Assembly (NCBI GenBank): GCA_029264305.1
Contig: JARICA010000009.1
Span: 140,971-204,970, forward strand
Source: Faecalimonas sp.
GTDB lineage: Bacteria; Bacillota; Clostridia; Lachnospirales; Lachnospiraceae
Length of the DNA stretch: 64,000 bases
Direction of reading: 5' to 3'
The position numbers were made by a program, and so were the translations under genes. The notes beneath the pieces are model-generated. The model had not been told where the DNA came from, made no database searches, and saw only the letters and a list, made by a program, of their open reading frames with translations. Position 1 is the stretch's first letter. Every line of letters begins with the position of its first letter. This document shows positions 13,033-40,579 of this stretch, one piece after another.

Positions 13033-13064
13033 TGCAAGAAACAAATGAGTAGCAGGTGGATAGC

Positions 13065-16000
13065 ATGAAGAATAAAATTAAGAGAATTTCAAAAGGAGAT
13101 TTTGAAGTAATACAGCCAGACGTACAATTTTCGGAAACCCACATTATAATGCAAATTAGTGAAGGGGAAATTTATCAAGGAAGTTTTACGTTGAAAAATA
13201 GAAAAGACGAGGAGATTCGAGGATTAATTTATCCGTCTTCTTTTCGTATACAATTAAAAAATCAAGGATTTCAAGGGAATCCAGTGGAAGTGAATTATAC
13301 CTTTGATGGAAGTGGAATGAAACCTGGAGATGTGGAAAAAGGAAAATTCACCGTGGTTTGCGATGGAGGAGAGTATGATATAGCATACACTGCAGTGGTA
13401 GAAAAACCATTTGTCATAACGGAATATGGAAAGGTGCAAACACTTAGAGAATTTAAAGAACTTGCTGAAATAGATTATGTTGAAGCTTGGAATTTATTTC
13501 GTTCAAAAAAATTTTCTGAATTATTGAAATATGAAGAAGAAAGAATAGTAGCCCTTTATAGTAATATGAGAAAATGGTCTCTAGATAAACAGGCTTTAGA
13601 AGAATTTTTAGTTTCAAGTAAACAAAAAGAAAGGATTTATTTGCTTTTTCAGGAAGAAGAGGCGATACTCTCTTATTATTCAGAAACAACTAAGGAAACA
13701 ATCGTTTTGACAAAAAACACTTGGGGATATTTGCCAGTGAAAATTTTTGTGGTTGGAGAGTTTTTAAGTGTTGAAAAAAATCAGATTACAACAGAAGATT
13801 TTATTGGTAATGATTATTATTTGGAGTATATAGTTAATGTAGAAAAATTGCATGCAGGATATAATTATGGGAAAATTATAGTAGAAACTCCTTTTGAAAC
13901 AATGGAATATCCAGTAACAGTACGCCAACAATCAATTCATACTGAAAAACATGGAGAAGAAAAGTTAATGTTTGGCTGTCTTTTAAAAAGTTACATGGCG
14001 TGTGTTTCGGGTAACTTGGAAATAAAACAGTGGACAAAACAAGCAGTAGAACTTGTAAAAAAATTACAGGAAATAGCACCGGATAACGAATTTTATGAAT
14101 TGCTTATGGCACATGTATATTTAAGAGGTGGATGTAAAGAAGAAGGGAAATGGCTTTTAGAAAATTATAATTACAATCGTTTTGCTATTGGAAAAAAGAC
14201 AGAACTGGGTTCGTATTATTTGTTTCTAACAGGACTTCTAGCAAAAGATGAGAGTTATATTAAAAAGGTTACAGAAGAATTAAATAAAGCTTATGAAAAA
14301 CATCCTACATCTTGGCAATTGTTATGCATGTTGTTGAATGTAGATTTGAAGTATCGTAATTATAGTGAGAAAATTCGTGTATTACAAAAGCAGTTTTCAG
14401 AAGGGGCGAATCAAATTCCTTTATACATTGAGGCGTATCTTTGTTTTCAAGAAAAAAGTAGTTTGTTGAAAAAAATAGGGCAATTCGAGATGAAAGTATT
14501 AGATTTTGCCACAAAATACCGCATGATTACAAAAGAATTGGCGCTGTATACAGCGAATCTTGCCAGCCAGGAAAAAACTTATAAAGAAAATTTATATCAG
14601 ATATTATCCCGTTCTTATTGTTTGTATCCTGAAAAAATGATTTTAAATGCGATCTGTACATTACTTATCAAAGGAGATAAGAAAGAAAATAAGTATTTTG
14701 TTTGGTATGATAGAGCGGTGACAGCAGGTCTTAGAATTGCAAAATTGTATGAATATTATGTAATGTCTGCTGATAAAGATAGGATGAACAAAGCATTCCC
14801 AAGAACTGTATGGCTATATTTTGTGCATGGAAGTTCTTTGGATTATAAAAATACAGCATTTTTATATGCGAATATATTAACATATGAGGATAAGAAAAGC
14901 AGATTATTTTTAAACTATTTTGAACAAATGGAAAGGTTTTCGTGGAAGCAACTTGAAAAAAGAAGAATTAACGAAAATCTCAGATTATTATATAAGTATT
15001 TCTGTAATGAACCAAATTTAAATATGGAGAGAATGAAAGCTATTTATGATATTTCTCATATATATCTAGTGAAGACAAATGCATCCCATATGAAATATGT
15101 GCTCGTTCTTGAGAAAAATGGCACAATCAGTCAGCGTGTTGCTTATGGAAAAGAAGGAGCGAAAATTTTATTATATCATAAAACGTCACGAATTGTATGG
15201 GAAGCAGATGATGGAAAATTTTATGCAGATTCTATTCAATATGAACTTACAAGGCTTTGTTTTGAGACACAGTTTGTAGAAATGTATAAGGATAAAGAAG
15301 ATTTACTTGAAACAGGCGTGGAAGAAAGTAAAGAAAAATTGACGTTTGAAAATGTAAAAAAATACGGTGTTGATTATTTTGGGGAAGAAAAAGTTTTCCG
15401 TTTATGTAGTAAATGTATTCGGGAAGAAAACAAGGAAAATGATTACCTTACTTATCTCTGTTTTTCTCTTTTAAATAGAGGAGTATACGACAATATGACA
15501 CTTCTTTATTTGGCAAAATATTATTGTGGTGCGACAAAAGACATGAAAAAAGTTTGGAATATTGCAAAAGAATATGGAGTTAAAAGTGATACACTTGCAG
15601 AAAGAATTATTACACAGATGTTATATACGGAAACGATGTTTAATGAAGAAAAATTTTTCATGGATTATTGTAAGGAAAGCAAATGTTCTCATTTAAAACA
15701 AGCATATTTATCGTATATTTCGAATGAATATATTGTAAAATCAAGAGAAATTAAAAAAGAAATTATAGAAGTGATTTTAAATGAATATGAAAAAGGAAAT
15801 GAACTTCCAATAGTATGTAAAATTGCGGTAATAAAATTTTATGCAAGACATTCTTATCCAAAAGAATGGGAAGATAGATTAAAACTATTTTTACAGGAAC
15901 TTTGTGAACAACAACTTATTTTTCCGTTTTATTTGGAGTATAAAGAAAAATGGTTACAGGAAGTTCTGCTTCACGATAAAATTATGATTCAATATAAAGC

Positions 16001-16328
16001 GAAAAAAGCTGGAAAAGTGAAATTATTATATAAAATAGGAAGAGATACTATTGTAGAAGAACTTCAACCTACCTATGCGAATATTTATGTAAAAGAATTT
16101 GTTCTTTTTGAAGGAGAAAGTTTATCATATAGTTTTCAAGAAGAAAAGGGAGAAACTATAATCTACGAAGAAAAGGGAGAATGCAGACAGCGAAAAAAAG
16201 TGGAACCGATTGGAAAATACGGACGTTTAAATGCTATGAATAAAATGGAGAGGGAGAAGCTGGAAAAAGAACTTTTTCAATACTGTTTGGAAGAAAAGAT
16301 GGCAGAAGAATTATTCGAAATATATTAG
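13065..16328 (+). CDS. DUF5717 family large helical-repeat protein
   Basis: 1087 aa from ATG 13065, six bases after AGGTGG; the track's GTG start lies in the ribosome site. There is no signal peptide or membrane helix. Residues about 1-120 and 195-300 look like two beta-sandwich (Ig-like) domains (ISEGEIYQGSFTLKNR; LHAGYNYGKIIVETP). From about 310 onward it is a long alpha-solenoid of TPR-like pairs (EFYELLMAHVYLRGG, ESYIKKVTEELNKAYEKHP). A beta-rich insert near 690-740 (YVLVLEKNGTISQRVAYG) and a terminal beta domain (FVLFEGESLSYSFQEE) follow. It matches my recollection of DUF5717, a Lachnospiraceae family of unknown function paired with DUF5716. Probably a cytoplasmic scaffold. Confidence 0.8.
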   Translation: MKNKIKRISKGDFEVIQPDVQFSETHIIMQISEGEIYQGSFTLKNRKDEEIRGLIYPSSFRIQLKNQGFQGNPVEVNYTFDGSGMKPGDVEKGKFTVVCDGGEYDIAYTAVVEKPFVITEYGKVQTLREFKELAEIDYVEAWNLFRSKKFSELLKYEEERIVALYSNMRKWSLDKQALEEFLVSSKQKERIYLLFQEEEAILSYYSETTKETIVLTKNTWGYLPVKIFVVGEFLSVEKNQITTEDFIGNDYYLEYIVNVEKLHAGYNYGKIIVETPFETMEYPVTVRQQSIHTEKHGEEKLMFGCLLKSYMACVSGNLEIKQWTKQAVELVKKLQEIAPDNEFYELLMAHVYLRGGCKEEGKWLLENYNYNRFAIGKKTELGSYYLFLTGLLAKDESYIKKVTEELNKAYEKHPTSWQLLCMLLNVDLKYRNYSEKIRVLQKQFSEGANQIPLYIEAYLCFQEKSSLLKKIGQFEMKVLDFATKYRMITKELALYTANLASQEKTYKENLYQILSRSYCLYPEKMILNAICTLLIKGDKKENKYFVWYDRAVTAGLRIAKLYEYYVMSADKDRMNKAFPRTVWLYFVHGSSLDYKNTAFLYANILTYEDKKSRLFLNYFEQMERFSWKQLEKRRINENLRLLYKYFCNEPNLNMERMKAIYDISHIYLVKTNASHMKYVLVLEKNGTISQRVAYGKEGAKILLYHKTSRIVWEADDGKFYADSIQYELTRLCFETQFVEMYKDKEDLLETGVEESKEKLTFENVKKYGVDYFGEEKVFRLCSKCIREENKENDYLTYLCFSLLNRGVYDNMTLLYLAKYYCGATKDMKKVWNIAKEYGVKSDTLAERIITQMLYTETMFNEEKFFMDYCKESKCSHLKQAYLSYISNEYIVKSREIKKEIIEVILNEYEKGNELPIVCKIAVIKFYARHSYPKEWEDRLKLFLQELCEQQLIFPFYLEYKEKWLQEVLLHDKIMIQYKAKKAGKVKLLYKIGRDTIVEELQPTYANIYVKEFVLFEGESLSYSFQEEKGETIIYEEKGECRQRKKVEPIGKYGRLNAMNKMEREKLEKELFQYCLEEKMAEELFEIY

Positions 16329-16345
16329 AAGAAAGAGGGAGAAAG

Positions 16346-17587
16346 ATGCAAAGGGGATATGTGATTGGAGTGGAGTTAAATCATCATACTTGCCAAATAA
16401 GTTATGGTGATGCAGAACAACAAGAACCGAAGACAATAGAGCGAATTCCGCTTGTTATTAGAAAAAAGGAACAAGAATGGATATTTGGAGAAGAAGAGGA
16501 AGAGGGAATTTATGACTTGTTGTCTCTTGCGATGAAACATGAATTAATTCAGGTAGCGGAAAAGACATATGAGGGGGTTTGGTTACTATCTTTATATATT
16601 CAACTTGTTTTGAAACGATTTCAAAATATAGATGCCATCGCATTTACTCTTCCGTATATAGATGAGGACATTGTACATCTTTTAAAAAGTGTTGGACAGA
16701 AATTAGGTGTGTCTAAAGAAAACGTGTATGTACAAGATAATAAAGAAAGTTTTTGCTATTATATGTTTTATCAACAGAAAGAATTATGGCAATATGAATC
16801 AGCGCTTTTTCAGTGTGATGGAAATGGTGTGCAAACGTATATGTTAAAGAAGTTACATATGAAGTGTGAAAATAAACAAGATACATTTATAGTTGTAGAT
16901 GAGGTTGCAAATGTAGATTGGGAAGAACTTTCTATAATATATCCACCGAACAATGAAGAGGAACAAAAGAAAGCAGATGAATATTTTAACCGTTTTATTA
17001 AAAATATTTTTCATAGAAGATTAATTTCTTCTGTCTTTCTAATAGGGGATGAATTTGAAAAAAAATGGTATCCGAATTCTTTAAGAACGCTTTGTAATGG
17101 AAGAAGAGTATTTCAAGGGGACAATTTATATAGTAAGGGTGCGTATTATAGTGTACAATATAAGACGAACGGGAAAAGAAGTAACCTTATTTATTTAGAT
17201 CAAACAAAATTAATGGAACAGATTTGTTTGAAATTTAGAATAAATGGAAGAGACATGTGGTATCCAATTGTACAATGGGGAACAAAATGGTATGAAAATG
17301 ATAGACAATTTGAAATACTTTTGGAAAACACAGATGATATAGAACTTCGCATTGAATCTTTACTAGAAAATTCAATTAGATTTGTGAATGTACCGCTTGG
17401 AAATCTTTCAAACAGAGAAAAATATACATTTCGTTTGCAAGTAAATATTATTTTCCGAGATGAACAAACATGTGTGATTACATGGAAAGATATTGGATTT
17501 GGTAATTTTTTTGCTTCATCAGGATTTCATACGCAAACAGTGATAAAGTTAGGAGGACGAAATGGGAAGTTTAATTCTTTGTCATAG
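16346..17587 (+). CDS. DUF5716 family protein, divergent Hsp70/actin-fold
   Basis: 413 aa, ATG with GAAAGAGGGAGA upstream, 17 bases after DUF5717. It can be laid on an Hsp70 nucleotide-binding domain: YVIGVELNHHTCQISY (phosphate-1 position, residues 5-20), DAIAFTLPYID (96-106, like Hsp70 VITVPAYF), ALFQCDGNGVQTYML (phosphate-2 position, about 153-167) and SVFLIGDEFEK (adenosine motif, about 230-240) followed by GRRVFQGDNLYSKGAYYS. The C-terminal 140 residues form a beta-rich domain (IVQWGTKWYENDR, WKDIGFGNFFASSG) like the Hsp70 substrate-binding lobe. Both phosphate loops are degenerate, so ATP hydrolysis is doubtful. The chaperone-like role is inferred. Confidence 0.78.
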   Translation: MQRGYVIGVELNHHTCQISYGDAEQQEPKTIERIPLVIRKKEQEWIFGEEEEEGIYDLLSLAMKHELIQVAEKTYEGVWLLSLYIQLVLKRFQNIDAIAFTLPYIDEDIVHLLKSVGQKLGVSKENVYVQDNKESFCYYMFYQQKELWQYESALFQCDGNGVQTYMLKKLHMKCENKQDTFIVVDEVANVDWEELSIIYPPNNEEEQKKADEYFNRFIKNIFHRRLISSVFLIGDEFEKKWYPNSLRTLCNGRRVFQGDNLYSKGAYYSVQYKTNGKRSNLIYLDQTKLMEQICLKFRINGRDMWYPIVQWGTKWYENDRQFEILLENTDDIELRIESLLENSIRFVNVPLGNLSNREKYTFRLQVNIIFRDEQTCVITWKDIGFGNFFASSGFHTQTVIKLGGRNGKFNSLS

Positions 17588-32596: not shown

Positions 32597-33601
32597 ATGA
32601 TTAATGATAAAAAGGTATTATTCAGTGGAATGCAGGCGACAGGAAATCTTACATTAGGTAATTATCTTGGAGCGTTAAAAAACTGGATTACATTAAGTGA
32701 TGAATATGAATGTTTTTATAGTGTTGTAGATATGCATTCTATTACGGTAAGACAAGATCCACAAATACTTCGCAAAAGAGCAAGAGCATTGTTGACTTTA
32801 TATATTGCGGCAGGGCTTGATCCAGAGAAAAATTGTATTTATTATCAGTCACATGTGTCTGGGCATGCAGAATTATCATGGATTTTAAATTGCTATACTT
32901 ATATGGGAGAATTAAACCGAATGACGCAGTTTAAGGATAAATCAGCCAAACATGCAGACAATATTAATGCAGGGCTTTTTACATATCCAGTTTTAATGGC
33001 TTCGGATATTTTGTTGTTTCAAGCGGACGTAGTGCCAGTGGGAATTGATCAGATGCAACATTTGGAATTGACACGAGATATTGCACAGAGATTTAATTCA
33101 ATTTATGGAGATGTTTTTACTGTTCCAGAAGCATATATAGGTAAAGTTGGAGCTAAAATTATGAGTTTACAAGATCCAACAAAGAAAATGTCAAAGTCCG
33201 ATGAAAATCCAAATGGAAGTATTTATTTAATGGATGATCCGGATACAATTATGCGAAAATGTAAGCGTGCTGTAACGGATTCAGAAGCACAAATTCTTTA
33301 TCGTGATGAACAACCAGGAGTGAAAAATCTAATTGATATTTATTGTGCTTGTACAAACAAAACGGCAAATGAGGTTGTACGGGAATTTGATGGAAAAGGA
33401 TACGGAGATTTTAAAACAGCAGTAGGAGAAGTAGTAGTTTCTGTTTTAAAACCACTACAAGATGAAGTGGCAAGACTTGAAAAGGATAAAGTTTATATTG
33501 ATAGTATTATTAAAAATAATGCAGAAAAAGCCAATTACTATGCAACAAAAACCTTGCGTAAAGTACAACGTAAGGTAGGCTTTCCTGATAGAATAAGATA
33601 A
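32597..33601 (+). CDS. trpS: Tryptophanyl-tRNA synthetase
   Basis: 334 aa from ATG 32597, preceded by AAAGGAGG; the track start lies inside the upstream gene. Class Ic motifs: SGMQATGNLTLGNYLGA (HIGH equivalent) and KKMSKSDENPNGSI (KMSKS). Substrate-pocket segments include YSVVDMHSIT and PVGIDQMQHLELTRDIA. No T-box leader is present; it is co-transcribed with the phosphatase gene. Confidence 0.97.
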   Translation: MINDKKVLFSGMQATGNLTLGNYLGALKNWITLSDEYECFYSVVDMHSITVRQDPQILRKRARALLTLYIAAGLDPEKNCIYYQSHVSGHAELSWILNCYTYMGELNRMTQFKDKSAKHADNINAGLFTYPVLMASDILLFQADVVPVGIDQMQHLELTRDIAQRFNSIYGDVFTVPEAYIGKVGAKIMSLQDPTKKMSKSDENPNGSIYLMDDPDTIMRKCKRAVTDSEAQILYRDEQPGVKNLIDIYCACTNKTANEVVREFDGKGYGDFKTAVGEVVVSVLKPLQDEVARLEKDKVYIDSIIKNNAEKANYYATKTLRKVQRKVGFPDRIR

Positions 33602-33606
33602 ATGTA

Positions 33607-33638
33607 AAAATGACATTTCAGTTGAAATGTCATTTTTT
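33607..33638. terminator. Bidirectional intrinsic terminator
   Basis: AAAATGACATTTCA, GT, TGAAATGTCATTTT. A perfect 14-bp stem followed by T. The stop codon of the minus-strand PIG-L gene lies inside it. Confidence 0.85.
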
Positions 33639-34301
33639 ATAACTATCTTTATAAGAAGTCCATTCTTCGTATGGAAATATATGTTTTAAATGATCGCATA
33701 CCTTTTTTTGTGATGAATAAAGTTCAGATATTTTTGTTTTTGCTTTTAAATTCTTGTCAGTCATAGAGGTGAGTGTATGATTTTTTAATTCACTCTTTTT
33801 ATAGTATGGAGCAAAATAATATAAGTTATCTGTTTGGTTTTCGCGTTCACATACTTTGGTTACAAGTTGATTTACCATTTTATGGTGAATGTGGCCATAT
33901 TCTCCATTCATATTATGAGTTGTTATACTTTCCCAATTTTTAGCTTTTACATAATGGGTAATCATTTCCTCAATATTCTCTTTATCGTGTTTCCAATTAT
34001 CTCTTTTTCCAAATGTTTTATCTGGGAAATCTAAGATTATGCCTTCGTTTTTTGTTGCATCTAACATGGCATTGAATTCCTTTTTCCTAGTAGAGTTATT
34101 TTCGTTTGTTAGGCAAACAATAAAATATCCACCTTCAGAAATATGTGCACCACCAAATATAGTTTCATCATCTGGATGAGCGACAATCATTAACTTTTTT
34201 GACTTTTCAGTCGGTTCGGATAGCTTTTCCTTTTGACAACCAGATAAAAGGAAGAGACAAGCAAGCAATCCGCAAATAGTTACTTTTTTTAAGATACGCA
34301 T
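33630..34301 (-). CDS. PIG-L family deacetylase, lipoprotein
   Basis: 223 aa. A lipoprotein signal peptide with lipobox LSGC (Cys22) places the enzyme on the outer face of the membrane. The zinc/catalytic motif AHPDDE is at residues 41-46 and the third metal ligand region is GEYGHIHH. PIG-L/LmbE enzymes remove the N-acetyl group from GlcNAc-type substrates. It is the last gene of the YfhO-GtrA-GT2 operon and overlaps the GT2 gene by 13 bases, so it may deacetylate the GlcNAc that operon attaches to surface polymers (inference). Confidence 0.88.
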   Translation of the reverse strand: MRILKKVTICGLLACLFLLSGCQKEKLSEPTEKSKKLMIVAHPDDETIFGGAHISEGGYFIVCLTNENNSTRKKEFNAMLDATKNEGIILDFPDKTFGKRDNWKHDKENIEEMITHYVKAKNWESITTHNMNGEYGHIHHKMVNQLVTKVCERENQTDNLYYFAPYYKKSELKNHTLTSMTDKNLKAKTKISELYSSQKKVCDHLKHIFPYEEWTSYKDSYKK

Positions 34302-35230
34302 GGTTTATTACTCTCCTTTATAATATAAATTGGTCGATTTTTATTTTCCATATAATCTTTAGAAATATATTGTCCTAAAATGGAAACGAATAGCATTTGA
34401 ATTCCACTTAATACAAGGATAAGTAAAGTGATTGCTAATAAGCCATTGAATTTGTGATGTAAAAATAATGTGTCAATTCCAATATATCCAGCTAAAACGA
34501 AAGAAATCAATAATAAAAATGTGCCGAACATTCCAGAAAGCATTAATGGTTTTGTGGAAAAAGAGAAAATCCCTTCGCAAGCGTAAGAAAATAAGCTTTT
34601 TAATGTCCATTTTGTTTCACCGGCAACTCGTTCGATATTGTGGAATTCAATCCATTTTGTTTCAAACCCTACAAAAGAGAAGAGCCCTTTCATATATCGA
34701 TTATATTCTTTCATTTCCAAAATAGCATTTACCATTTGTCGAGACATCATACGAAAATCTCCTGCACCATCACTCATATCCATGTGTGTAAGACGCTGAA
34801 TAACACGATAAAAAGAGTGTGATAGAAAATTTCTTATTTTCCCTTCACCAGTACGATCTAGACGTTTACCGGCACAACAGTCATACCCTTCTTTATCAAC
34901 TGCGTAGAACATTTTTTTTAGTAATGTGGGTGGATGTTGCAAGTCGGCGTCCATAATGACACAATAATCACCCTCTGCATGAGATAATCCGGCATACATT
35001 GCAGCTTCTTTCCCGAAATTTCTTGAAAAAGAAAAATAGGAGATGTGAGGGTCTTTTGTAGCTAGAAATTTTATAATATCAATAGTACGATCTTTGCTTC
35101 CGTCATTAATAAATAGTAATTCATAATCAGCATCACTAATATCTTGTAAAACTTTTGTCACTTCTTTATGAAAAAGTGGTAAAGATTCTTCCTCGTTATA
35201 ACAAGGAACGATTACACTAATTTTTTTCAT
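34289..35230 (-). CDS. GT2 family glycosyltransferase, GtrB/CsbB-like
   Basis: 313 aa. The N-terminal GT-A domain has SVIVPCYNEEESLPLF, LFINDGSKDRT, the DADLQHPP metal-binding motif and DFRMMSRQ. Two C-terminal membrane helices follow (about 230-255 and 265-295). Homologues such as GtrB and CsbB load a sugar onto undecaprenyl phosphate at the inner face. It overlaps gtrA (14 bases) and the PIG-L gene, which indicates a tight operon. The transferred sugar is unknown; GlcNAc is suggested by the CsbB parallel and the deacetylase. Confidence 0.92.
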   Translation of the reverse strand: MKKISVIVPCYNEEESLPLFHKEVTKVLQDISDADYELLFINDGSKDRTIDIIKFLATKDPHISYFSFSRNFGKEAAMYAGLSHAEGDYCVIMDADLQHPPTLLKKMFYAVDKEGYDCCAGKRLDRTGEGKIRNFLSHSFYRVIQRLTHMDMSDGAGDFRMMSRQMVNAILEMKEYNRYMKGLFSFVGFETKWIEFHNIERVAGETKWTLKSLFSYACEGIFSFSTKPLMLSGMFGTFLLLISFVLAGYIGIDTLFLHHKFNGLLAITLLILVLSGIQMLFVSILGQYISKDYMENKNRPIYIIKESNKPCVS

Positions 35231-35630
35231 AAATCATTCCACCTTTCTCTTCTGTAAAAATTGCATATTTGCATAAAATATAATTTGCTAAAATAGTAAT
35301 TACGCTTACAATTAGTTTAGAAACAAGAGAATGAAGCTGTAATTGTTGTATGCATACATAGAGAAGAACATTTTCTATAAGTAAAGTAATAAGTCGCATT
35401 GAAAAAAAGGAAAGCGCTTCTTTCTCTGATTTTTTTGTTTTTTGAAATACAAAATGTTTGTTTGCATAAAAAGCAAAAAGGACAGCGAAAACCCAAGCTA
35501 TTGTATTTGCAAACAGATATTTTTTTTGAAAAAAGAATAAAACTCCAATATAAACAAAGTAATTGATTCCTGTTGTACAACCACCAATAAGGCAGTAACG
35601 TATAAATTCTCTTAATGTTTTCTTTTCCAT
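35217..35630 (-). CDS. GtrA family membrane protein (putative polyprenyl-sugar flippase)
   Basis: 137 aa with four hydrophobic helices. Family landmarks: REFIRYCLIGGCTTGINYFVY, WVFAVLFAFYANKHFVF and ILANYILCKYAIF. GtrA/GtcA proteins are thought to flip undecaprenyl-phosphate sugars across the membrane. It overlaps the GT2 gene by 14 bases and the YfhO gene by 19. It supplies the transport step between loading (GT2) and transfer (YfhO). Confidence 0.92.
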   Translation of the reverse strand: MEKKTLREFIRYCLIGGCTTGINYFVYIGVLFFFQKKYLFANTIAWVFAVLFAFYANKHFVFQKTKKSEKEALSFFSMRLITLLIENVLLYVCIQQLQLHSLVSKLIVSVITILANYILCKYAIFTEEKGGMIYEKN

Positions 35631-38020
35631 AAAAACCTCCTCTTGTAGTTGAAAAAAATAATAAATAGTATGAAAGAAAGACCACTTATAATAAGACCTA
35701 GTCGTTTTGTTGGTGCGTGAAATACAATTGAAATGGTGTGAGTTCCTTTGTCTATAGGAAATCCAACAAAGCAGGTATTTACTTTTTCAACAGGTATATT
35801 TTTCCCATCGATATAAGCTGTAAATCCTTTTTCATATGGTATAGATGTAATAAGATAACCATTGTTTGATACTTTTACATTTCCTTTTAAAACTTCTTTC
35901 TTTATGTTTTTTGTTAATTTAACTGTGTCGACAGTTTTGTTCCTTCTCTGTATATAAGTATACGGGAGAGAATAGAGTTGCACATGTTTGATTTGATAAT
36001 CCCCTCTAGAGGCATTTATATGCAGCTCTTTTATTGGATTGTTTGACGAAAGAACATAAGTAAAAGTTGTATTGTTGTTTGGGTAATTTGCATCTTTACC
36101 AGATAGTTTGTTTCGTATGCCGTTAATATCTATAATAACTTCTTTACTATCTTTTCTATCGATATCAAAAGAAAGAAGAAGTACTTGGTTTTTATATTCT
36201 TTTGGCAAAGAAACGGTTTGATTTTTATTATTTTTTATTGTAAAAGAAAAATTTTCTTTTTGCATTCTTTTTTTGAAATCCATTTTGTTGGTATTCACAA
36301 CTGCTGATTGTGTTAGAACATCTATATTTTCTGGATAAGATAATTTTGCAAACTCTTTTTCGCTATAGAGCGTATTTGTGACATAAGCAAAAGGCATAGA
36401 ATCTTCGGTTTTAGCAAGCACAATTCCGTTCCTTTTTTTGATAATGTTGTATCCAATCGGAAGTGTTTTTTCTTTACTCTCCATTGTTGTTACATGCATT
36501 AGATGTTGAAACAAAATATTCGGGTTTGATGAAAGTACCACTCGATTGCGAATACTGATTGGATTTTTCATATAATCATAATAGAAAGTATTGTATTCTC
36601 CATTGGAAAGAGAAGAATACATGGTTGTTTTATAAGTATTTGCACTAAAAATGTCGTTTACGTTTAGAAGTCCTGTAGTAGTGTCTAAAAATCTTCCGGT
36701 GTAAGTAGAACAAAGAGTACTTAACTCATTATTTGAAAAAATTTTTTTTTCTTTTGTAGGATATATTTCTGTTCCGTTTAATTGTATACAAATTATGAAT
36801 GGAAGTATACAGGAAAGAAATAGGTATACAGTGTTTCTTTTTTGATAGAAAAGAACGAGAAAAACAAGACTAACTACAATATCTAAAAAGATTGGAAGAT
36901 TCGTTTTTCTATGGTCGAATAAATAAATGGTTAAAACAGGTATTACAGCAAAGAAAAGAGGGTAAAAATGTAATTTCTTTTCTGAATAGTATATTTCCTG
37001 TAATGTTTTAGCAAAAACATATAAGATAAAAGGGAGAAAAACAAGGTAAATTTTGTAACGTACATATAATGTTCCATTTAGTATATAAGCAACAAGATTA
37101 CTAGATAGGCAAACTAAAAGGGTAGCTCCCATTTTTTTTGTTCGGCTATATTGTAGTGAAAGAATTAATACAAAAAGGACAATTATTGTAAGCCCAGCTC
37201 CGTAAGAGTAGTATAAAAGACCTCTTAAAGAAGGAGTGACACCTAATATTTCAATTAAAGAAAGGGAATTACCTTTATCTTTTTTTATATGCATCATATA
37301 GTATGCAGTTGGTAGAAGAAGAACTGCGCACATTCCGATTCCTATGGATATGGCTAGTGCATATTTTGCAATGAAAGATTTTTTTTCTGTTTTGTTTCCT
37401 AATTGAAAGAAAAAATAAACTGTACAAAGAATAATTGCTGTTACACTAAAAAAATAACTATGTAAAATAATAAGTGCAACGGATAAAGGAATCCATCGTA
37501 TTTTTTTTGTTTCCAAAAAGTTATCTATAGCGAGTAATGTACAAAATAAATAAGGCATGTAGTTGATAAACATAATTTGTCTGTGACTTTGGAATAAAAG
37601 AGAAGATGTTGCTAATAAAAGTGCAGAAACAAAGCAAATTTCTTTTTGTATGTTGTGTCTTTTTAACCAAATAAAGCAAAGATTAACACTTACAATATAT
37701 TCTAGGATAATGTAAGTGACAACAATATATTCCATAGATACGGAAGGGAATAAATAACTGATTAGTACATCTAAGCGAAAAAGGCCATAATAGGACAATG
37801 CGTAAATGTTTACTCCACTACCTAGGTGTGGGGCATAATCTGGAAAAAGTTGTCCGTTTTTAAAAAAGAGTGTGCGAAAATATTCTGCGATTTTAATATG
37901 TTGTTGTGCCCAATCTATCATGGAGCCAAAAGCTGTATTGTTTGGCCAAATAATAAAGATAAGAATACTGGCAAAAACAGTTAAAAATATATAAGGATAA
38001 AATTTTTGTGATTTTTTCAT
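35612..38020 (-). CDS. YfhO family GT-C type membrane glycosyltransferase
   Basis: 802 aa with about 12 N-terminal membrane helices, then a large extracytoplasmic domain (about 420-770) and a final helix (LGLIISGLSFILFIIFFNY). Landmarks: SMIDWAQQHIKIAEYFR in the first outside loop, with the acidic residue typical of GT-C enzymes, then PDYAPHLGSGVNIYALSYYG, and near the end FTAYIDGKNIPVEKVNTCFVGF. In B. subtilis YfhO works with CsbB to glycosylate lipoteichoic acid. First gene of the operon, GGGAGG before the ATG, divergent from the TPR fusion gene. Confidence 0.9.
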   Translation of the reverse strand: MKKSQKFYPYIFLTVFASILIFIIWPNNTAFGSMIDWAQQHIKIAEYFRTLFFKNGQLFPDYAPHLGSGVNIYALSYYGLFRLDVLISYLFPSVSMEYIVVTYIILEYIVSVNLCFIWLKRHNIQKEICFVSALLLATSSLLFQSHRQIMFINYMPYLFCTLLAIDNFLETKKIRWIPLSVALIILHSYFFSVTAIILCTVYFFFQLGNKTEKKSFIAKYALAISIGIGMCAVLLLPTAYYMMHIKKDKGNSLSLIEILGVTPSLRGLLYYSYGAGLTIIVLFVLILSLQYSRTKKMGATLLVCLSSNLVAYILNGTLYVRYKIYLVFLPFILYVFAKTLQEIYYSEKKLHFYPLFFAVIPVLTIYLFDHRKTNLPIFLDIVVSLVFLVLFYQKRNTVYLFLSCILPFIICIQLNGTEIYPTKEKKIFSNNELSTLCSTYTGRFLDTTTGLLNVNDIFSANTYKTTMYSSLSNGEYNTFYYDYMKNPISIRNRVVLSSNPNILFQHLMHVTTMESKEKTLPIGYNIIKKRNGIVLAKTEDSMPFAYVTNTLYSEKEFAKLSYPENIDVLTQSAVVNTNKMDFKKRMQKENFSFTIKNNKNQTVSLPKEYKNQVLLLSFDIDRKDSKEVIIDINGIRNKLSGKDANYPNNNTTFTYVLSSNNPIKELHINASRGDYQIKHVQLYSLPYTYIQRRNKTVDTVKLTKNIKKEVLKGNVKVSNNGYLITSIPYEKGFTAYIDGKNIPVEKVNTCFVGFPIDKGTHTISIVFHAPTKRLGLIISGLSFILFIIFFNYKRRFLWKRKH

Positions 38021-38065
38021 ATATAATTTTCCTCCCTCATTTCTGTATCATATTATGACAGATGA

Positions 38066-38136
38066 ATCTTAAGAACGGATTGAATAGAATGACGAATATT
38101 CTTAAAATTACCACCCTATTTCTTAATACTTCTTAA
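38066..38136. repeat. Four TTCTTAA-type direct repeats in a divergent promoter region
   Basis: ATCTTAA at 38066, TTCTTAA at 38099, 38120 and 38130. Start-to-start spacings are 33, 21 and 10 bases, near multiples of one helical turn. They lie between yfhO (minus) and the TPR fusion gene (plus), just upstream of a TATAAT with no recognisable -35. Probable regulator-binding sites; the protein is not identified. Confidence 0.5.
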
Positions 38137-38173
38137 GAAATAAAAGTTTATATGCGAAAAGAAGAAAAATATG

Positions 38174-38179
38174 TATAAT
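38174..38179 (+). promoter_or_regulatory. -10 element upstream of the TPR-DUF4037 gene
   Basis: TATAAT 24 bases before the ATG. The expected -35 position (TATGCG) has no match, which suggests dependence on an activator binding the repeats just upstream. Confidence 0.4.
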
Positions 38180-38197
38180 AAAGAAGGAGGATAGCAA

Positions 38198-40579
38198 ATG
38201 AATGAGAAAAATATATTAGGTCAATTAGATAGACTATTTCAGGAAAAAAGAATTTCAGAAGTAGAACCATTTTTAACAGGAAGTATTGAGTATGCGAAAA
38301 AAGAAGACGATAAACAATTGCTATTAAGTCTTTATAATGAACTAACAGGATATTATCGAAGCGTTGGGAAAACGGAGGAAGCAATTAAAAATGGTCGTAA
38401 GGCAGAAGCGGTAATTGAAGAATTAGAACTTTATAATACAAAATTTCATGCAACAACACTTGTAAATTTAGCAACAGCATATCGTTCTGCTGGAAAACAT
38501 AAAACATCTTTAGAAATTTATCAGAAAGCTCAGTGTATTTATGAAAATGTGCTTACGGAATCAGATGTAAACAAAGCCGGACTTTATAATAATATGAGCA
38601 TGGCATATCAAGGGTTAGGAGAGTATAGAAAAGCAATTAAATGTTTAAATACTGCATTAAAAATTGTTAAAAGTTTACCTAAATGCGAACAAGAGGTTGC
38701 ATCCACGTACATAAATTTTTCAACTGTATATTTTGAAATGAAAAATTATGAAGAAGGAATATTAGCTTTGCAGGAAGCGTTGAAAATATATGAAAATAAA
38801 GGGGAAAAAGATTCTCATTATTCGGCTCTTCTTGCCTCGTTAGCACATGGGTATTATTTGAAAAAAGATTTAGAAAAATCAGTGGAATATTATACAAAAG
38901 CTTTAAAAGAAATATTAGAATTTCATGGAGAATGTGAAAGTTATTCAATTACTTGTGAAAATTGCGCAATTGTACTAGAAGAAAGTGGTTTTTTGCAACA
39001 AGCTGAATATCTTCGAAAAAAAGCAAAAGATGCGCGAATAAAACAAAAAAGAAATAAAGGAATGGACATTTCTCGTATGTATTATGAAAAATACGGTGAA
39101 AAAATGTTGCGAGAAAAATTTCCAGAGTGTTTTTCTAGGATAACGGTTGGACTTATAGGACATGGATCGGAATGTTTTGGCTTTGATGATATATATTCCA
39201 CAGATCATGATTTTGGTCCTGCGTTTTGTGTTTGGTTAGAGGAAACAGATGCTGAAAAATATGCAAAAGAGATGAAAGAAGAGTATGAAAAACTTCCAAA
39301 ATCTTTTGGAAATATTCCGGCTAGAGAAATAAGTGCTCACGGAGAAAATAGAATCGGTATTTTGAAGGTTTCCACATTTTATGAAGAATTTTTGGGAAAG
39401 AAATTGTATGAAGTTTTATTATTGCCTCAAAATTATACGATAGAAGAAAAAGAGAATGCATGGGCTTCTGTTCCTGAAACAGCTTTGGCTCAGGTGACTG
39501 CAGGAGAAATTTTTAAAGATGGAGAAGGAACATTTTCTTACGTACAAAGGGAGTTGCAAAAAGGGTATCCATACGGATTGAAAATACGTAAAATTGCACA
39601 GATGACAGCGTTGACTGCGCAAGCTGGACAGTATAATTATCTTCGATGTGCGAAACGAGGAGAATATGCTGCGTCAGAAATGGCACTTCGCGAATTTGTC
39701 CAAGCAAGTTCTAATTTGATTTATTTGTTAAACAATACATTTATGCCTTATTACAAATGGATGTTTCGAAAAATGAAAACACTTCCTAAATTATCTGAAG
39801 CAAAAGAATATTATGATCAGTTATTTATTGCACAGACAGTTGAAGAAAAAAGTGAGATTATTGAAGAAATCTGTTCCATTATTTTGAAAGAATTAAAAAA
39901 ACAAAATTTAACGGAAGGCGAAGAAAGCTTTTTGGAAATTCATGTAGAAAGAATATTGCGGAGGGATAGCAAAATGAATATAATGGAAAAAATTGTAGAA
40001 TTAGAGTGGGAAATGTTTCAAAAGGTAAGAAATACAGGAGGGAGAGCTTCGTGTCAAGATGATTTTGAAACATTTGATATTATGAGAAAAAGTCAGTTTT
40101 CAGTATGGAGAGAAGATGTATTAAATTCTTATTGGAAAGATTTGACAGAGGGAGAAAAACAAGGTCGTAATTTAATTATGGAAAAATATGCTTATATGAT
40201 GGAAAGTTCATCAAAAGAAGAATACGAGACAATTAAAGATGATTTACCATTAGTTTCGGAAGAAAAAGCGAAAATAATAGAAGGGGTTGTTTCTATACAA
40301 GTAGAATGGAGAGAGGAGTTTGCAAGTAATTACCCATATTTGTCTAAACAAGCGAGATTGATTCACACATCAGAGGATGAAGAAAATAATATTTCTTTTG
40401 AAACGTATTTACGAGGGGAATTAAAAACATATTCATTAGAAACTCTTGTTAGATATGCAGCAATGGTCGTGGATTTCGCGAAACAGGGAATAAATATGGT
40501 AGAGGAAATTATGCGTCAAACAACGAAATACTATGGATATGCAACAATAGATGAAGCAGAAGAAAAACAAATAATGTAA
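38198..40579 (+). CDS. TPR - DUF4037 (nucleotidyltransferase-like) - DUF4125 fusion protein
   Basis: 793 aa, ATG after GGAGGATAGCAA. Residues 1 to about 285 are TPR repeats (GLYNNMSMAYQGLGEYRKAI, ALLASLAHGYYLKKDLEKSV). About 290-560 is DUF4037, a nucleotidyltransferase-fold domain with GLIGHGSECFGFDD and STDHDFGPAF, where GS...D.D metal-ligand positions are retained. A link of about 30 residues leads to DUF4125 from about 593 (ELEWEMFQKVRNTGGRASCQ, YGYATIDEAEE). These domains occur elsewhere as separate proteins. The transferred nucleotide and target are unknown. An in-frame internal ribosome site precedes Met593. Confidence 0.85.
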   Translation: MNEKNILGQLDRLFQEKRISEVEPFLTGSIEYAKKEDDKQLLLSLYNELTGYYRSVGKTEEAIKNGRKAEAVIEELELYNTKFHATTLVNLATAYRSAGKHKTSLEIYQKAQCIYENVLTESDVNKAGLYNNMSMAYQGLGEYRKAIKCLNTALKIVKSLPKCEQEVASTYINFSTVYFEMKNYEEGILALQEALKIYENKGEKDSHYSALLASLAHGYYLKKDLEKSVEYYTKALKEILEFHGECESYSITCENCAIVLEESGFLQQAEYLRKKAKDARIKQKRNKGMDISRMYYEKYGEKMLREKFPECFSRITVGLIGHGSECFGFDDIYSTDHDFGPAFCVWLEETDAEKYAKEMKEEYEKLPKSFGNIPAREISAHGENRIGILKVSTFYEEFLGKKLYEVLLLPQNYTIEEKENAWASVPETALAQVTAGEIFKDGEGTFSYVQRELQKGYPYGLKIRKIAQMTALTAQAGQYNYLRCAKRGEYAASEMALREFVQASSNLIYLLNNTFMPYYKWMFRKMKTLPKLSEAKEYYDQLFIAQTVEEKSEIIEEICSIILKELKKQNLTEGEESFLEIHVERILRRDSKMNIMEKIVELEWEMFQKVRNTGGRASCQDDFETFDIMRKSQFSVWREDVLNSYWKDLTEGEKQGRNLIMEKYAYMMESSSKEEYETIKDDLPLVSEEKAKIIEGVVSIQVEWREEFASNYPYLSKQARLIHTSEDEENNISFETYLRGELKTYSLETLVRYAAMVVDFAKQGINMVEEIMRQTTKYYGYATIDEAEEKQIM
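39960..39976 (+). promoter_or_regulatory. In-frame internal ribosome site and ATG for the DUF4125 part
   Basis: GGAGGGATAGCAAAATG, in frame with the fusion gene at Met593. It is almost the same as the gene's own start region (GGAGGATAGCAAATG), differing by two single-base insertions. It could yield a separate 201-aa DUF4125 protein. Confidence 0.5.

Follow-up and report, generated by a model that had tools for sequence, protein, structure and literature searches.

Does an exported PIG-L deacetylase belong to the glycosylation machinery that it is encoded with, and on what would it act? This question is raised by an operon of Faecalimonas sp. that lies in a stretch of 64,000 nucleotides, analysed as a whole and referred to here as the window.

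Organization of the operon

The operon consists of four overlapping minus-strand ORFs at 33630–38020 in the order YfhO, GtrA, GT2, and PIG-L. The overlaps amount to 19 bp (yfhO/gtrA), 14 bp (gtrA/GT2), and 13 bp (GT2/PIG-L). The initial annotation had described four genes running end to end, and this arrangement is found, with all Pfam families above their curated cut-offs. The genes and local features are as follows.

35612–38020, minus strand: first gene, a GT-C glycosyltransferase of the YfhO family with 802 aa (PF09586, 5e-53; AlphaFold; Foldseek)
37898–37915, minus strand: candidate GT-C catalytic site of YfhO, the motif D36-W-x-x-Q-H41, expected to lie in the first outer loop
35217–35630, minus strand: small membrane protein of the GtrA family with 137 aa, presumed to be a flippase (PF04138, 4e-24)
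34289–35230, minus strand: GT2 polyprenyl-phosphate glycosyltransferase of the GtrB/CsbB/PgfS type, 313 aa (PF00535, 9e-36)
34943–34951, minus strand: D94-A-D96 nucleotide-sugar/metal motif of GT2, from sequence
33630–34301, minus strand: PIG-L de-N-acetylase lipoprotein, 223 aa (PF02585, 5e-11; AlphaFold; Foldseek)
34236–34247, minus strand: lipobox L-S-G-C, PIG-L residues 19–22, from sequence
34164–34181, minus strand: PIG-L motif 1, A41-H-P-D-D-E46, whose residues A41 to D45 do not vary among 38 relatives; aligns with AHPDDE of MshB
33882–33917, minus strand: PIG-L motif 2, H129-N...G-E-Y-G-H137-x-H-H140, with H129, N130, H137, and H140 invariant in 38 relatives; aligns with GYGHPDH of MshB
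33606–33637, no strand assigned: 14-pair hairpin with a T tail, located between the operon end and trpS; the score refers to the minus strand, and the plus strand has a T run as well

The hairpin is a probable terminator serving both the operon and trpS. A promoter scan gave matches at no higher frequency than in shuffled sequence and was left unused. No second PIG-L, YfhO, or full-length GtrB-type GT2 was found in the 1.95 Mb genome. Elsewhere in the window, at 13056–17587, two large uncharacterized proteins, DUF5717 and DUF5716, are encoded side by side; three ORFs resembling them lie just upstream of the PIG-L gene of another locus (L103, 125–5689).

The three-component glycosylation system

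A CsbB/GtcA/YfhO-type system features a polyprenyl-phosphate transferase of the GT-A fold (GT2), a small membrane protein of the GtrA family, and a GT-C transferase of the YfhO family, and all three are found here. GT2 aligns along almost its whole length with GtrB (sll0501), a polyprenyl-phosphate transferase of solved structure (8e-66), and carries two C-terminal hydrophobic segments besides the D94-A-D96 motif. GtrA belongs to the GtrA/DPMS-TM Pfam family and has three clear hydrophobic segments as judged by a simple scan. The AlphaFold model of YfhO (pLDDT 84.5) has AftD, EmbB, OST, AftA, and ArnT as its best Foldseek matches; YfhO is, on the basis of these model matches, a GT-C transferase with a large β-rich C-terminal part. 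Within its candidate catalytic motif, D36, W37, and H41 are invariant and Q40 is nearly so among 25 aligned sequences. The families, the intact catalytic residues, and the predicted folds support the earlier view of a complete three-component system consisting of a GT2, a GtrA flippase, and a GT-C transferase.

Fold, motifs, and sidedness of the PIG-L enzyme

The PIG-L protein scores 43.7 bits against the profile PF02585, for which the curated cut-off is 28.2. The Foldseek matches of its AlphaFold model (pLDDT 91) are GalB at the top, MshB, and diacetylchitobiose deacetylases. At the sequence level, phmmer gave no direct match to solved structures, and only a profile search found MshB. The enzyme shares the PIG-L fold and the catalytic motifs HPDD and GHxxH with MshB and the diacetylchitobiose deacetylases; the Zn-site and catalytic residues H42, D44, D45, H137, and H140 are invariant in 38 relatives. 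It differs from MshB, which has a cytoplasmic small-molecule substrate, by being an exported lipoprotein and by a deviation that is consistent throughout the subfamily: the Asp of the MshB motif GHPDH is replaced by His (rarely Gln). In two relatives of the Big_2 type (L020, 1492–3063; L024, 1477–3012), Lys replaces the first His of GHxxH, and these proteins may be inactive or altered. One further ORF, directly before a YfhO gene, contains two PIG-L domains in tandem (L101, 6851–8173).

The lipobox cysteine of the window protein, Cys22, follows an N-terminal hydrophobic segment. Such a segment is present in 99 of the 99 PIG-L ORFs examined; the lipobox is clear in the window protein only, and the relatives mostly carry an N-terminal membrane anchor or signal sequence. 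In addition, the PIG-L domain is preceded by choline-binding-type cell-wall repeats in three relatives (L043, L044, and L095) and by Big_2 Ig-like domains in five (L020, L022, L023, L024, and L090)—both architectures of surface proteins. As judged by these sequence features, PIG-L very probably faces outward and toward the wall, and the membrane-anchored, outward-facing enzyme of the initial annotation is borne out to this extent.

Linkage of PIG-L and YfhO across genomes

A contig collection with one genome per species (84,980 species) was scanned with the PIG-L alignment. The scan patterns were built from PIG-L alone and are therefore not biased toward YfhO. At least 157 PIG-L relatives were found, and 80 of these loci were examined. 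In 63 of the 80 loci, PIG-L has YfhO as its immediate neighbor, at a distance of at most 261 bp and often overlapping, in several orders and orientations: PIG-L is upstream in 44 pairs, downstream in 14, and divergent in 5. One further locus (L090) features the row PIG-L, GtrA, GT2, and YfhO. YfhO genes that lack a PIG-L neighbor usually adjoin a GT2 or GtrA gene, which is the classical arrangement.

A second sample, an even selection of 397 Lachnospiraceae-type genomes, shares members with the first (L056 is identical to L113 and L029 to L134). Of these genomes, 18 have PIG-L, 84 have a close YfhO, and 14 have the two together (Fisher 2e-7). As determined from coordinates and profile searches, PIG-L has YfhO, GT2, or GtrA beside it in 15 of these 18 genomes, which come from almost as many genera. 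The placement of PIG-L next to YfhO, for which a recurrence of the gene order had been suggested as a check, thus recurs far beyond chance and is not a local accident.

The PIG-L gene might merely be cotranscribed and its product act on an unrelated small or environmental molecule. Such a reading could draw on the remaining 16 of the 80 relatives, which have no glycosylation gene in direct contact, and on GalB, a hydratase showing that the PIG-L fold can carry other chemistry. The recurrence of the adjacency over many genera, gene orders, and YfhO lineages, together with the co-occurrence given above, speaks against it and makes it highly improbable. A functional tie of the outward-facing PIG-L to the three-component system is supported by the recurrent adjacency, the wall-binding domains on relatives, the intact catalytic residues, and the predicted folds.

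In three separate lineages, a response regulator and an apparent kinase are encoded beside the PIG-L/YfhO pair (L025, 7582–10111; L081, 1280–4225; L098, 4757–6420). These neighbors would fit a regulated, stress-induced expression of the pair, and they prove nothing.

Proposed mechanism and order of reactions

The operon probably encodes a four-component transmembrane system for glycosylation with N-acetylhexosamine, in which a dedicated extracytoplasmic N-deacetylase yields a cationic decoration of the GlcN type. In the cytoplasm, GT2 would use a UDP-activated N-acetylhexosamine, most likely UDP-GlcNAc, to charge undecaprenyl phosphate. GtrA would then carry the lipid-linked sugar to the outer leaflet, where YfhO would pass it to a surface glycoconjugate. 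These three steps follow the CsbB/GtcA/YfhO paradigm (PMC5836110, PMC8035078). In the fourth step, at the outer face, the membrane-anchored PIG-L would strip the N-acetyl group and leave a cationic amino sugar; this step is based on the chemistry of the PIG-L family and on the genomic link. The same link suggests that the sugar transferred by YfhO is an N-acetylhexosamine. Observed directly are the gene content, the overlaps, the motifs, the predicted folds, the recurrent pairing of PIG-L with YfhO, and the export signals; what we infer comprises the donor sugar, its flipping, catalysis, the order of transfer and deacetylation, and the effect on charge.

The order could also be reversed. The substrate of PIG-L would then be undecaprenyl-phosphate-GlcNAc of the outer leaflet, and YfhO would transfer free GlcN, in a manner resembling NaxD, which prepares Und-P-GalN for lipid A. 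The membrane anchor places PIG-L close to the Und-P-sugars, and the known enzymes MshB and PIG-L use small glycosides or glycolipids as substrates. NaxD, however, is cytoplasmic and not a member of the PIG-L family, and the wall-binding and Ig-like repeats on some PIG-L relatives point to a wall substrate. The precedent for the reversed order, the Und-P-hexosamine deacetylase NaxD of Francisella, is cited in PMC8149597. Overall, deacetylation ahead of transfer appears quite unlikely.

The acceptor

The genome bears no match to PF04464 (TagB/F-type teichoic-acid polymerase) and none to DltD. Among solved structures, GacH (2e-20) is a closer match than LtaP or LtaS to its single LtaS-superfamily membrane transferase. 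This transferase of 719 aa is encoded on another contig of the same genome (C4; L111, 667–2826), directly upstream of a folC-like gene, and is a candidate for the enzyme that makes the acceptor polymer. A plausible acceptor is an LTA-like surface polymer or another one that contains phosphate (glycerol-phosphate-bearing); a polysaccharide may also serve. The initial interpretation, decoration of teichoic acid or a similar polymer followed by deacetylation, is supported as to the machinery and the outward-facing deacetylase; teichoic acid as the acceptor, deacetylation after transfer, GlcNAc as the sugar, and lysozyme or peptide resistance are conjectures. Acceptor machinery of the classical teichoic type is missing from the genome. 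Two-component systems in three lineages aside, no conserved neighbor able to name the acceptor was found past species-level synteny.

With the same chemistry, the acceptor could be a surface protein or a membrane glycolipid and no wall polymer. The top-scoring NCBIfam model of GT2 is PgfS, and the C-terminus of YfhO matches PgfM1 and PgfM2, all of streptococcal protein glycosylation; among glycolipid systems, HexSDF leads to an aminohexosyl glycolipid in C. difficile and GpgSDF to GlcN-PG. However, the scores fall below the curated cut-offs (317 against 500 bits for PgfS; 47 and 50 against 1400 and 1500 bits for PgfM1 and PgfM2), and membership in the Pgf system was rejected on these values. 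Moreover, HexSDF and GpgSDF rely on unrelated transferases and lack a GT-C enzyme, and the operon encodes no substrate protein. Overall, a protein or glycolipid acceptor is unlikely, though less so than the reversed order of reactions.

A role of the PIG-L system as a replacement of D-alanylation was considered as well. DltD is matched in 26 of the 397 Lachnospiraceae genomes and in 1 of the 18 with PIG-L; since it is rare family-wide, there is no contrast to draw on, and the idea was set aside.

Gain or loss of the cassette

Among 92 YfhO proteins placed in a tree, that of the window falls into a clade of 12. Two other members are linked to PIG-L, those of Holdemanella porci (L025) and an uncultured clostridium (L026), and the remaining nine have no adjacent PIG-L and mostly a GT2 and GtrA. 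Since nine of the 12 do without it, related systems may dispense with deacetylation of the sugar. The two linked loci also supply the two best PIG-L matches; their closeness in both proteins is consistent with movement of the cassette as a unit.

A bigger set of YfhO–PIG-L pairs, from Ruminococcus-type bacteria, lies elsewhere in the tree. The hypothesis that all PIG-L-linked YfhO proteins form a single clade fails (AU p 5e-7), and the tree requires three changes or more; the long branches L043, L044, and L090 call for caution with this rejection and weaken the exact count. The pairing has therefore originated or persisted in at least two YfhO lineages; repeated loss instead of repeated gain is possible.

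In a congener (G005; L149, 3647–7169), the flanks are collinear with window positions 33601–38198, and the whole four-gene operon is absent: trpS is followed directly by the TPR/DUF4037/DUF4125 gene, about 17 bp apart. PIG-L is found in none of the nine sampled congeners (0/9). As judged by this sequence comparison, the empty site and the absence from the congeners mark the operon as an accessory cassette that was either acquired as a block in the window genome or lost as a block in the congener.

Comparison with known systems

CsbB/GtcA/YfhO systems glycosylate LTA or WTA with GlcNAc in B. subtilis, S. aureus, and L. monocytogenes (PMC5836110, PMC7389260, PMC8035078). They share with the window operon the GT2, the GtrA-family protein, and the YfhO-family GT-C, as well as the extracellular addition of an Und-P-linked sugar. 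They differ in that all genes are here united in a single overlapping operon with a fourth gene, the exported PIG-L. The words "deacetyl" and "glucosamine" are absent from the text of a review of multicomponent transmembrane glycosylation.

PplD of group A Streptococcus is likewise a membrane-anchored extracellular GlcNAc de-N-acetylase; it acts on the GlcNAc of the wall polysaccharide and increases resistance to cationic proteins (PMC8807736). Unlike the window enzyme, it is not a PIG-L; it belongs to the polysaccharide deacetylases, targets the GlcNAc-1-phosphate linkage unit, and has no YfhO partner.

HexSDF of C. difficile also combines sugar transfer with subsequent deacetylation, for which the outer face is the presumed site, and alters antibiotic resistance (PMC10128005). 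In contrast to the window operon, it has a glycolipid product, an MGDG-synthase-type transferase, an MprF-like flippase, and an annotated polysaccharide deacetylase in place of PIG-L.

GpgSDF of P. aeruginosa resembles the window operon in uniting transferase, deacetylase, and flippase in one predicted operon, which yields a GlcN-modified membrane component (PMC12713373). It differs by a GT4 transferase, a COG3233 deacetylase predicted to be cytoplasmic, and phosphatidylglycerol as acceptor.

The Pgf operon of S. mutans, which serves protein glycosylation (PMC5856776), features PgfS, a relative of the GT2 described here, and, in PgfM1/M2, a large membrane protein whose C-terminus is related to that of YfhO. 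Its acceptors are proteins, it encodes an epimerase in place of the deacetylase, and its operon lacks GtrA.

Meaning of the PIG-L/YfhO pair

All components are of known kinds, and their coupling appears new. Among 5.39 million open-access papers, none was found to mention both YfhO and PIG-L; the titles and abstracts of the three that name YfhO together with "deacetylase" draw no link between them. It is an even call whether the pair represents an undescribed class of surface glycosylation in gut Firmicutes—a dedicated extracytoplasmic PIG-L turning the HexNAc installed by YfhO into a cationic amino sugar—spread over Lachnospiraceae, Ruminococcus-type Oscillospiraceae, and Erysipelotrichaceae. 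Altered surface charge and resistance to cationic peptides as consequences would follow by analogy with PplD (PMC8807736) and HexSDF (PMC10128005).

If true, PIG-L would have a role in surface-polymer tailoring that is undescribed in the searchable literature. Gram-positive bacteria change their surface charge by D-alanylation, lysinylation, and deacetylation of the polysaccharide-deacetylase type. The widely distributed PIG-L/YfhO pair would be a further charge-changing route in gut commensals largely lacking dlt and would bear on their survival against host cationic peptides. It would also provide a testable function for at least 157 exported PIG-L relatives and predict N-acetylhexosamine as the donor of their YfhO partners.
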